This document shows positions 11,593-24,050 of a DNA stretch of 38,780 nucleotides, piece after piece; the first letter of the stretch is position 1, and every line of letters starts with the position of its first letter. The notes beneath the pieces were generated by a model. It was given only the letters and a program-made list of their open reading frames with translations. It made no database searches and was not told where the DNA came from. This DNA is from Planctomycetota bacterium (GTDB lineage Bacteria; Planctomycetota; Planctomycetia; Gemmatales; Gemmataceae). The stretch lies in assembly GCA_016191165.1 (NCBI GenBank), contig JACPPF010000097.1, positions 1 to 38,780 on the forward strand. Reading direction: 5' to 3'. Made by a program: the position numbers and the translations under genes.

Positions 11593-11621
11593 TTGACAGC
11601 CATTCAGATAGGGATTATGAT
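11593..11621 (+). promoter_or_regulatory. sigma70-type promoter of the DUF1559 gene
   Basis: A perfect TTGACA (11593-11598), a 17-base spacer and TATGAT (11616-11621, 5 of 6) stand 40 bases upstream of the start codon. This is the best promoter match in the window and suggests strong expression of the DUF1559 gene. Confidence 0.75.
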
Positions 11622-20928: not shown

Positions 20929-21059
20929 TTCTCGCAAAGGCGCAAAGGCCGCCAAGGAATTCAAGAGGGGAACAACCTGGAATTATCCGCTCTCGGAAAA
21001 TACTCGTCGATCATCTGCTCATTTGTCTACCCTTTGCGGCCCTTGCGTCTTTGCGAGAA
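20929..21059. repeat. intergenic repeat R, copy 1: inverted pair of GCAAAG/GCCAAGG arrays
   Basis: The left arm (20929-20963) reads TTCTCGCAAAGGCGCAAAGG, then CCGCCAAGGAATTCA. The right arm (21031-21059) is an inverted, diverged copy (reverse complement begins TTCTCGCAAAGACGCAAGGG). Copies of the same element lie at 38282-38413, with the AATTC tail conserved. The rest of the 450-base gap between the two membrane-protein genes holds no gene that I can see, apart from a likely promoter at 21164. Confidence 0.75.
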
Positions 21060-21163
21060 ATAATGACGTGATGTCGGCGGCCTTAATGGTTCTTCCCATC
21101 GTAAGCGGAAGTTGCGGGGTAGGAATCCATGAGGGCCCAAACCGTCTGGCCATCCGATCCGTC

Positions 21164-21192
21164 TTGACGCTTTCCGCGAAAAGCGCTACCAT
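21164..21192 (+). promoter_or_regulatory. putative promoter of the 540-aa membrane protein
   Basis: TTGACG (21164-21169), 17-base spacer, TACCAT (21187-21192). It lies 65 bases before the chosen start at 21257 and supports that start over longer readings of the frame. Confidence 0.4.
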
Positions 21193-21256
21193 GTTGCCGC
21201 GCCAAGCAAGAACACCCCATCGGACCCAGCTTGCCTCCTGCGGAAGGGACGCCGCC

Positions 21257-22879
21257 ATGACCGACTCATCGACTCACCCTTTACGACTCAGCACCCAGCA
21301 CTCGGGAACCGATTGGTTGCTCATCGCCGGCCTTGTTTTGCTTGTACTGCCGCTGCGACTCTGGCTGCTCTACAACACCGAGGTGACGGCGCGCGACAGC
21401 ATTGGTTACATTCGCTATGCGCTTCATTTCGAGGAGAAATCGTGGACGGAATCGGTGCGGGAGAATCAACAGCATCCCGGTTACCCGCTGATGGTGCTCG
21501 CGATGTCGCAGCCGATCCGCGCGCTCGACGGCGCGACGACGCCGGAGAACATGGTGTTGGCGACCCAGCTGGTTAGCCTGCTGGCATCGCTGGTTTTGAT
21601 CATGCCGATGTACTGGCTGGGGCGGCAGGCCTTCGATCGGCCCGTCAGTTTCTGGGCCACGCTGCTATACCAATATTTACCTGTCAGCGCCCAGCACCTT
21701 TCCGATGGCGTGTCGGAGCCGACCTACCTCGTGTTCCTGGTTAGCGGCCTGCTGTTCCTGGCCCGCGCCGTGCGCGCGTATCGATTGACCGACTGCGCGT
21801 TATGCGGCTTCTTTACGGGCCTGGCGTATTTGACCCGGCCCGAGGGCTTGCTGATTTTGCCCGCGTTTGGCGCGACGATCCTGGCGATGCAGTTCCGGGC
21901 GCCGTGGCGGTGTTCGCGCCTGCGCTTCGTTGCCTGCGGAGCCACCGTCGTCCTGGTCGCGTGTGCCGTGGGGTCGCCGTATGCCTGGGCCGTGAGGGGG
22001 TTGACAAACAAACCAGCGGGTCGCGATCTGATCCGCAATGCGACCGGACATCAGGCCAGCACTGCGCCGGGGCAGCACCATCTTTTCGCGATTACCTTTC
22101 CGAAGTCGGACAGTAAGGTTGTCAATCTCGCGCGGGGCGTCTGGGCACTCACGATGGAGGTAGTGCAAGGATTCCACTACGGCGCGGCCATTTTTTTGCC
22201 CCTGGGGTTGTGGTGGTCGCGACGTTCCCTTGTGCAAAATCCCGCAGCCTGGGCGCTCGGCGCCTATTTGGCGGGTCACGCGCTGATTCTGGTCGGGCTG
22301 GCGATGACGGTCGGATATATCTCCGATCGCCACGTCATGATCCTTGTCCTGTGTGGGAGTTTTTTCGTGGTCGCGGGAATGCGCGAACTCCCGCGGCGTT
22401 TCTTGGCGTGGCGGTCGAGGACGCAGTTATCGACCGGTCCCTTGGTCTGGTGGCGCTCGGCCCCGGTCTGGTTCGCGGTCTTGCTGGCGGTATTGATCGG
22501 CGCGTGCTTGCCCCGCACCACGCAGCGATTGCACGGCAATCGCGCGGGGAATCATCACGCGGGGCAATGGCTGCGGGCTCACCTGGAACAGGGCGACGTC
22601 GTGTACGACGATCATTGCTGGTCCCACTTTTTTGCCGGGCTCGTGTTTCAGGAAGGCAAGGACGTGCCGATTCCGCGGGATGCCCAGCCCACCTGCTACG
22701 TGGTCTCCACCCGGGCGCGGGATCCGAAAATGGACGAGGCTCGGCAAGCGGGCAACGGAATCGCCAACGCCCGGCTGGTGTACGCCTGGCCCGAAGGCGT
22801 TGCCCCCGCCAAGGCGCGTGTTTTGGTCTACGCCAGGCCTCGAAACCAAAAGGACCACGCCTGGCGACCGGTGCCTTGA
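21257..22879 (+). CDS. polytopic membrane protein, glycosyltransferase family 39 (PMT/ArnT-like)
   Basis: 540 aa with about 10 membrane segments. After the first (WLLIAGLVLLVLPLRLWLLY) an outer loop carries TARDSIGYIRYALHFEE, the acidic GT-C loop where PMT-like enzymes keep a catalytic Asp, followed by HPGYPLMVLAMSQ (H-P-P/G-x-Y-P-L). Later segments include SEPTYLVFLVSGLLFLARA and AYLTRPEGLLILPAFGA, the R-P-E motif usual in this group. The C-terminal soluble part (from about residue 425, HHAGQWLRAHLEQGDVVYDD) is periplasmic. Such enzymes transfer a sugar from a polyprenyl-phosphate donor to protein or lipid on the outer face; donor and acceptor are unknown. AGGGA lies about 8 bases before the ATG at 21257. 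Confidence 0.78.
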   Translation: MTDSSTHPLRLSTQHSGTDWLLIAGLVLLVLPLRLWLLYNTEVTARDSIGYIRYALHFEEKSWTESVRENQQHPGYPLMVLAMSQPIRALDGATTPENMVLATQLVSLLASLVLIMPMYWLGRQAFDRPVSFWATLLYQYLPVSAQHLSDGVSEPTYLVFLVSGLLFLARAVRAYRLTDCALCGFFTGLAYLTRPEGLLILPAFGATILAMQFRAPWRCSRLRFVACGATVVLVACAVGSPYAWAVRGLTNKPAGRDLIRNATGHQASTAPGQHHLFAITFPKSDSKVVNLARGVWALTMEVVQGFHYGAAIFLPLGLWWSRRSLVQNPAAWALGAYLAGHALILVGLAMTVGYISDRHVMILVLCGSFFVVAGMRELPRRFLAWRSRTQLSTGPLVWWRSAPVWFAVLLAVLIGACLPRTTQRLHGNRAGNHHAGQWLRAHLEQGDVVYDDHCWSHFFAGLVFQEGKDVPIPRDAQPTCYVVSTRARDPKMDEARQAGNGIANARLVYAWPEGVAPAKARVLVYARPRNQKDHAWRPVP

Positions 22880-23090: not shown

Positions 23091-23119
23091 TTGACGCGGC
23101 CTGAAACATTTCTTATCCT
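23091..23119 (+). promoter_or_regulatory. promoter of the Cys/Tyr-rich TIGR03000 gene, with long leader
   Basis: TTGACG (23091-23096), exact 17-base spacer, TATCCT (23114-23119). Transcription from about 23126 would give a leader of about 165 bases before the ATG at 23291. The leader starts with a hairpin, ATGCGCAA (23133-23140) with TTGCGCAT (23151-23158). Confidence 0.5.
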
Positions 23120-23290
23120 ACCTAGAGACCCCATGCGCAACCGTTAAATCTTGCGCATACCACGCAATCATCGGATTCCGCTGGTTCGGCGTACCTGTTC
23201 GCGGTCGGCTCGAACCGTTTGTTGGATACCTGGATGGCCCTCCCACCCTGACGGGAATTCGGCCTCCCATTCGTTTGGAGAAGGCACACC

Positions 23291-23992
23291 ATGTACAGCG
23301 TTGTTTTGGCAACCATGCTCGCGGCCGGCAGCACCACGCCTGCCTGGCATCATCACCATTCCTGTTATTCGTGTTACGCCAACTGCTACTCCAGCTGCGG
23401 CGGTTACGCCGGTTACAGCGGCTATGGGCATTACAGCGGCTACGGTTGCTACAGTGGCTGTAGCTGCTCGACCTGCTTCGGCTGCCATCGGATCTTTCCG
23501 ATCTTCCACCGTCATCACTGCCATTCCAGTTGTTTCTGCTCCTGTTCCTGCACGGGGGTCGTCTACTACAGCAGTTGCAGCGTCTGCTGCGGCGGGCCGG
23601 TCTACTACTACGGCTGCACCGGATGCACCATCTGTTGCGGTGGCGTGGTGACGCAGCCCAGGGTTGTGCCGGTGCCCGAGAAGATTGATCCGCCGGGCAA
23701 GGACAAAGATCAGGGCGTTTCCATTCCCGCGTCCAAGGCGCGCGTGACGGTCATGGTCCCAAGCGATGCCAAGCTGTGGGTTGAAAACGTCGTCTGCCCG
23801 TTGACCTCGACCGTCCGTTCGTTCGACACGCCGTCGCTCAATCCGAATCAGCGCTACTTCTACAACATCCGCGCTGAAATCGTGCGCGATGGCCGGACCA
23901 TCAGCGAAACGCAACGCGTGGTCATCACCCCTGGCCAGGAAGCTCGCGTTGATTTCACGACCACCGGCGTCATCGCGACCGCCTCTCGGTAA
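23291..23992 (+). CDS. Cys/Tyr/His-rich protein with C-terminal TIGR03000 domain
   Basis: 233 aa in two halves. Residues about 20-120 are extraordinarily rich in Cys (21), Tyr, Gly, Ser and His, with runs such as HHHHSCYSCYANCYSSCGGY and SGYGCYSGCSCSTCFGCH, and no regular metal-finger spacing. The C-terminal part (about 148-233) matches the planctomycete TIGR03000 domain: ARVTVMVPSDAKLWVENVVC, then RSFDTPSLNPNQRYFYNIRA and GQEARVDFTT. The N-terminus MYSVVLATMLAAGSTTPA is a short possible signal peptide. GGAGAAGG (23276-23283) is an excellent RBS. The gene has its own promoter and a strong terminator. Disulfide or di-tyrosine cross-linking at the cell surface is an attractive idea, since planctomycete walls were reported as protein-rich and Cys-rich, but it is inference. 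Confidence 0.85.
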   Translation: MYSVVLATMLAAGSTTPAWHHHHSCYSCYANCYSSCGGYAGYSGYGHYSGYGCYSGCSCSTCFGCHRIFPIFHRHHCHSSCFCSCSCTGVVYYSSCSVCCGGPVYYYGCTGCTICCGGVVTQPRVVPVPEKIDPPGKDKDQGVSIPASKARVTVMVPSDAKLWVENVVCPLTSTVRSFDTPSLNPNQRYFYNIRAEIVRDGRTISETQRVVITPGQEARVDFTTTGVIATASR

Positions 23993-24018
23993 GTGCTAAC
24001 ACGTATGGCAAAAAAATG

Positions 24019-24050
24019 AAACCTCACGCTTTCGAGCGTGAGGTTTTTTT
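24019..24050 (+). terminator. intrinsic terminator of the Cys/Tyr-rich gene
   Basis: AAACCTCACGCT (24019-24030), TTCG tetraloop, AGCGTGAGGTTT (24035-24046), with the T-run continuing to 24050. A perfect 12-bp stem with a UUCG loop and U-tract, 26 bases after the stop. Confidence 0.9.

Follow-up and report, generated by a model that had tools for sequence, protein, structure and literature searches.

Cysteine-rich proteins with a conserved uncharged leader and, usually, a TIGR03000 domain in one planctomycete order: probable structural proteins of the envelope

What the planctomycete wall consists of has been disputed ever since reports of a protein wall rich in Cys. Passages of PMC8567305 credit older work with proposing protein walls (Konig 1984, Liesack 1986) and describe how Cys-rich YTV proteins were identified in cell walls prepared from Rhodopirellula and Gemmataceae; a passage of PMC10632474 counts the YTV protein as one of the essential proteins in Planctopirus and notes a suggested role in wall rigidity. 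YTV proteins are the only Cys-rich wall component named in the papers found. A planctomycete-special N-terminal surface signal, PF07595, has been proposed for export (Studholme et al., as cited in passages of PMC8567305). We found no paper naming TIGR03000 or plancto_dom in a search largely confined to papers outside subscription. The literature search likewise returned nothing on the leader-bearing, Cys-rich family described here, and the passages found in PMC4807772 hold nothing on it. This subclass of the poorly known TIGR03000 family is real, unusual and, in the literature searched, without earlier description.

The protein P0001 (233 amino acids) is encoded at 23291..23992 (+) of the window, which is the whole stretch of DNA analysed: 38,780 nucleotides of a Planctomycetota bacterium (GCA_016191165.1, contig JACPPF010000097.1, positions 1-38,780). 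A sequence-only reading of this DNA had described an open frame, its Cys count, a TIGR03000 domain, a promoter-like site, a ribosome binding site and a terminator, and each was found where that reading had placed it. Full-length relatives share 67, 67 and 49 % identity with P0001. Across the leader and the domain, comparison with three relatives gave pN (0.11-0.25) well below pS (0.35-0.71). Change is faster in the Cys region, which has 19-23 gapped positions of 99, is rich in indels and keeps its composition. The gene, supported by its open frame, its relatives and pN/pS, is real. The dxs gene is convergent to it and also adjoins the related gene in genome G006; a further relative, L042 (VGZI01000147.1), comes from a MAG of a Planctomycetota bacterium.

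Like the YTV proteins, P0001 is Cys-rich and planctomycete-only and would suit a disulfide-rich wall. However, it lacks their PF07639 domain: a Pfam scan of P0001 to E 10 gave LacZ_4 alone (0.27), with neither PF07639 nor PF07595 matched. The YTV proteins of the same genome lie on two other contigs, where their open frames span 743 and 857 amino acids, and carry ordinary charged signals. The P0001 leader resembles PF07595 in being N-terminal and planctomycete-special, but the PF07595 motif, LxLExLExRxxP, is charged and the leader is not.

P0001 has 22 Cys in all. Its Cys/Tyr/Gly/Ser-rich region (residues 24-118; 23360..23644, +) holds 21 Cys, 14 Tyr, 16 Gly, 16 Ser and 6 His, which agrees with the earlier estimate of about 21 Cys in some 95 residues. 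The repeats had been called irregular, and this is correct, because Cys spacing matched that of shuffles, without excess of CxxC, CxC or CC, and 23291-23700 contains no direct repeats at the DNA level; DNA repeats were accordingly dropped as the makeup of the region. Pooling of 52 family members gave a 2.3-fold enrichment of CxxC spacing. CxxCH, the haem site of c-type cytochromes, occurs once in P0001 (shuffle mean 0.42, P 0.35) and 60 times in the pooled members against 6.6 expected, a count that short CHGC-type repeats would also yield. Of the complete family proteins, 40 have an even Cys count and 40 an odd one, so there is no sign of intramolecular pairing. Many members have a basic-hydrophobic stretch of LF..RR type between their Cys blocks (RIFPIFHRHH at window 23489-23518); two patterns for it matched 24/78 and 21/78 members against shuffle means of 3.3 and 1.4, and since they were picked after inspection we regard the motif only as a lead.

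After a linker (residues 119-148; 23645..23734, +), a low-confidence part of the structure model, comes the TIGR03000 domain (residues 149-222; 23735..23956, +), a predicted seven-stranded beta sandwich. It covers positions 2-75 of the 75-position profile at 70.2 bits (E 1e-19), above the curated cut-off of 43.1. The domain had been called planctomycete-specific, and in the samples searched it is indeed restricted to the class: it occurs in 123/198 genomes of the class sample and in 4/246 of the phylum sample, 4/4 of these in the class. Paralogues sharing the TIGR03000 tail, for which a search had been advised, were found, the domain occurring at 11 places in P0001's genome. In L001, L005 and L035, TIGR03000 follows soon after a signal peptide and is fused to a C-terminal part that we call methyltransferase-like from a motif, DLGCGD, read by eye; such a fusion would place a SAM-type enzyme outside the cytoplasm.

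We looked for relatives of the domain beyond its own profile. No Pfam family matched the P0001 domain at cut-off, and TcaA_3rd_4th matched weakly in 7/30 domain members (best E 0.014). A PDB sequence search gave no clear relative, its best hits being designed Ig proteins (E 0.0018). An AlphaFold model built from two sequences had seven strands and a mean pLDDT of 74.7 (about 75-88 over the domain), and Foldseek returned nothing for it at E 0.001 or better. The best VIA match was 6hif chain Y, from the Kuenenia hydrazine dehydrogenase (HDH) complex (Z 7.9, rmsd 2.3, 75 aligned), a subunit for which the PDB search listed no sequence match to the domain; S-layer SlaB gave Z 6.7. The model resembles Ig-like folds that are common outside the cytoplasm, though Z values below 8 are in the chance range and perhaps reflect a mere common fold. 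We did not take Z 7.9 as membership, and homology to known families was set aside. The HDH subunit is nonetheless a lead despite that value, because it too comes from a planctomycete.

P0001 begins with an uncharged leader, MYSVVLATMLAAGSTTPAW (residues 1-19; 23291..23347, +), which is conserved in the genomes of the order, probably Gemmatales, with the consensus MYS[VIL]V[LM]..A[LM][TS]..P[DE].P.F. The corresponding DNA pattern is present in 24/31 relatives (reversed pattern, 0) and in 94/102 genomes of the order (6 reversed-control sites). In the class sample it was found in 49/51 genomes of the order, with G013 and G331, which lack a match, carrying the variants MYS/MYG...AWAT. Outside the order it is far rarer (42/147 genomes; 52 sites against 13 in the control, a hand count from the listing of sites not read as ORFs). 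Codons for Tyr, Ser and Ala within the leader vary synonymously, so it is the peptide that is under selection. Several members, such as L016 and L027, have a stop codon immediately 5' of the ATG; hence mis-calling does not account for the short uncharged start.

Neither this leader, nor a family-wide promoter, nor the division of TIGR03000 proteins into two kinds was part of the sequence-only reading. One kind of ORF joins a signal with Lys/Arg to a middle rich in Gly, Tyr, Ser and His; the other joins the MYS-V-V-L leader to a Cys-rich middle. Members with an ordinary signal are mostly poor in Cys and rich in Gly, Tyr and Ser, whereas the leader/Cys-rich subclass has an N-terminus and a promoter of its own. 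Absence of charge at positions 4-10 is in part built into the leader pattern, which bars charged residues there. To avoid bias, a leader-blind sample was picked by the domain HMM only. Of its 76 different proteins, 27 carry the leader and 49 do not; the regular expression used to call the leader puts no constraint on position 7 or on positions from 10 on. Lys and Arg are absent from residues 1-12 of all 27, where other N-termini have 0-5. Cys made up at least 5 % of the sequence before the domain in 27/27 leader proteins versus 4/49 others (Fisher 1e-16, kinship ignored); L176, which passes 5 % with just 27 residues before the domain, was left uncounted. A wider, partly leader-selected set, from which rows with fewer than 60 residues before the domain were dropped, gave at least 4 % Cys in 92/95 leader proteins and 4/34 others.

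The layout of the family is thus an uncharged leader, a fast-changing Cys-rich middle and usually a TIGR03000 domain. Altogether 98 distinct ORFs begin at the leader pattern. Cys-rich ORFs (at least 2 % Cys, at least 60 amino acids) account for 85; the remaining 13 are mostly short or unrelated, L110 being a Cys-poor true relative. The domain is present in 73 of the 85 and absent from 12, two of which are cut by contig ends, while L098 and L062 are perhaps fragments or frameshifted; about eight leader proteins keep the Cys-rich part and have no domain. L062:1501-2058 is C69, the third leader/Cys-rich gene of the genome. Its frame lacks TIGR03000, which may reflect a frameshift or a member genuinely without the domain.

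How much of this association is shared descent? On a domain tree of 73 columns, with 84/147 inner branches open, the leader changes 9 times versus 45.8 in shuffles, and leader and Cys content give one supported independent pair, which points to one lineage with retained traits and not to many independent events. Kinship explains much of the leader/Cys/promoter association, and the family comes close to being a single lineage. No neighbouring gene is shared over 84 loci. Clustering of the neighbours returned only subfamily-specific ones, and a dedicated partner gene was dropped as a candidate. An S41/PDZ protease, L114:1-1437 (-), is divergent from a two-domain leader subfamily (cluster in 14/84 loci, mostly one genus), and a hydrophobic protein with no Pfam match, L059:3-1034 (-), lies beside leader genes in 9/84 loci.

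The -35/-10 pair with 17-base spacing attributed to P0001, TTGACG-17-TATCCT (23091..23119, +), does not stand out when the window alone is scanned (1 found versus 0.6 in shuffles). It stands on its relatives. In G006, G002 and G003, the related genes have TTGAC[AT], 17 bases and TAT[CG][CT]T 163-169 nt before the start (171 in P0001), and the DNA around these elements has diverged; the promoter is convincing because it is kept amid diverged upstream DNA. G001, an equally close relative, has no such site in the upstream alignment and is missing from the list of genes with the promoter. We then counted a family pattern (TTGAC-like, 16-18 bases, TANNNT, within 300 nt of the gene). It precedes 68/97 leader genes with the domain, with a spacer of 17 in 61/68, and it precedes 1/38 ordinary-signal genes of the order and 1/15 outside it; shuffles predict 4.8 in the leader set and 1.8 in the rest. 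The sole ordinary-signal gene of the order with the promoter, L030, looks like a leader gene and is probably one with a GTG start. A separate count over the 85 leader ORFs gave 56 positives (shuffles 4.2, reverse strand 3). The exact 17-base form has 133 sites in the 7.2 Mb genome versus 84 for the reversed control, and it precedes 3/3 of the leader/Cys-rich genes there (C88, C109 and C69), against a chance expectation of about 0.01. Leader, Cys-rich region, domain and promoter are conserved jointly.

Promoters of this type are not confined to the family, since the window holds three sites of the pattern. An exact TTGAC-18-TANNNT site at 21164-21192 falls within the long ORF 21023-22879, some 60 nt upstream of an ATG in the same frame; because of this position, the membrane-protein gene there probably starts downstream of the TTG. 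The third exact site is at 11593-11621.

If transcription starts about 7 nt past the -10, the 5' untranslated leader is presumably 165 nt long (23126..23290, +), as had been proposed. It does contain a hairpin, but it folds like shuffles (z +0.31), no better than chance, so a structured leader as a sign of regulation was not borne out. An RNA regulator in this leader was rejected as well, the window having no Rfam match and the leader sequence not being conserved. The ribosome binding site read from the sequence, GGAGAAGG (23277..23284, +), is good, but "near-perfect" was too strong. The intrinsic terminator (24018..24047, +), scored on both strands, has a 13-pair stem, a 4-base loop and a T run; the terminator scan as a whole found 2 versus 1.8 in shuffles.

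Does the leader take the protein out of the cytoplasm? Homologues outside the order have a charged cleavable signal (AxA or similar) with Trp/Phe within a few residues of it in 15/15 cases, the sites of L205 and L038 being read by eye where the script had matched an earlier AxA; 2/19 ordinary-signal members of the order have this layout. Among leader proteins, 67/95 carry Trp/Phe at positions 18-20 (background 0.12), so the leader sits at the signal-peptide position. Moreover, L199, L203 and L050, all outside the order, have an ordinary signal followed directly by a Cys-rich stretch. Export is favoured mainly for these reasons. The missing n-region charge and the rarity of AxA (6/27 leader proteins versus 33/49 others) raise doubt, and the export reading is weakened by the ordinary signals on the YTV wall proteins of the genome. 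No conserved secretion partner was found beside leader genes in the 84 loci.

We consider it about an even chance that P0001 is an exported, disulfide-linked structural envelope protein with a modified signal. P0001 would be strongly expressed, extracytoplasmic and structural. The uncharged leader (residues 1 to about 18) would replace the ordinary signal of the outside-order homologues and carry the chain out of the cytoplasm, where the Cys/Tyr/Gly-rich stretch could oxidise into an insoluble disulfide-linked network in the envelope, perhaps tyrosine-linked too, and the C-terminal TIGR03000 beta sandwich might anchor that network or join it to other wall parts. Against this reading, a search of P0001's genome confined to the VKOR family, and so without DsbB, found no member.

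A plainer version, compatible with this one, is that P0001 reaches the envelope by the ordinary Sec route on a short signal without a charged n-region; we give this a fair share of belief, though short of even. Signal peptidase cleavage sites follow the (-3,-1) rule, and T-P-A before Trp19 of P0001 fits it. The hydrophobic core, at 2.18 in leader proteins versus 2.78 in other N-termini, reaches up to 2.51, and the leader's position matches that of the outside-order signals. Secreted Sec/SPI proteins, however, have a positively charged n-region, and P0001 has no such charge in its first 12 residues. In most members the residue at -1 is not an acceptable one: D, Q, E and P, which do not suit signal peptidase I, are among those seen most often at position 18. 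The conserved [DE].P.F tail also speaks against an ordinary signal. That the leader is not an ordinary signal would suit a metallothionein-like metal or redox buffer, cytoplasmic or membrane-bound, whose Cys/His region binds soft metals and whose leader is no more than a hydrophobic, membrane-associating helix; the 21 Cys and 10 His in residues 20-118 and the CxxC enrichment of the pooled members agree with such a protein. Yet metallothioneins have few or no aromatic residues and clustered CxC/CxxC, and with 14 Tyr among its Cys and its CxC, CxxC and CC at shuffle level, P0001 is less likely to bind metal. The outside-order homologues bear ordinary signals, and relatives with such signals put Gly, Tyr, Ser and His where Cys stands, which suggests a matrix role. 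We think a buffer unlikely. The leader-core layout and hypervariable core also recall the precursor of a peptide in which a Cys/Ser/Thr-rich core is enzymatically modified, but the 84 loci share no common neighbour, a folded domain follows the core and most of the proteins have 160-430 amino acids, so we hold this to be very improbable.

The P0001 family is a strongly Cys-rich family of one planctomycete order with a probable structural role in the envelope, and the envelope reading, drawn from sequence comparison, is a reasonable hypothesis. The leader family provides a second, separate and listable set of candidate genes in nearly every searched genome of that order, with the leader and the promoter as handles for finding its members. 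More tentatively, and with rather more doubt than confidence, the MYS leader may be a new, order-specific, uncharged export or sorting signal for Cys-rich wall polypeptides, with or without a TIGR03000 anchor and with a strong promoter class; it would then mark a second, YTV-independent protein layer.
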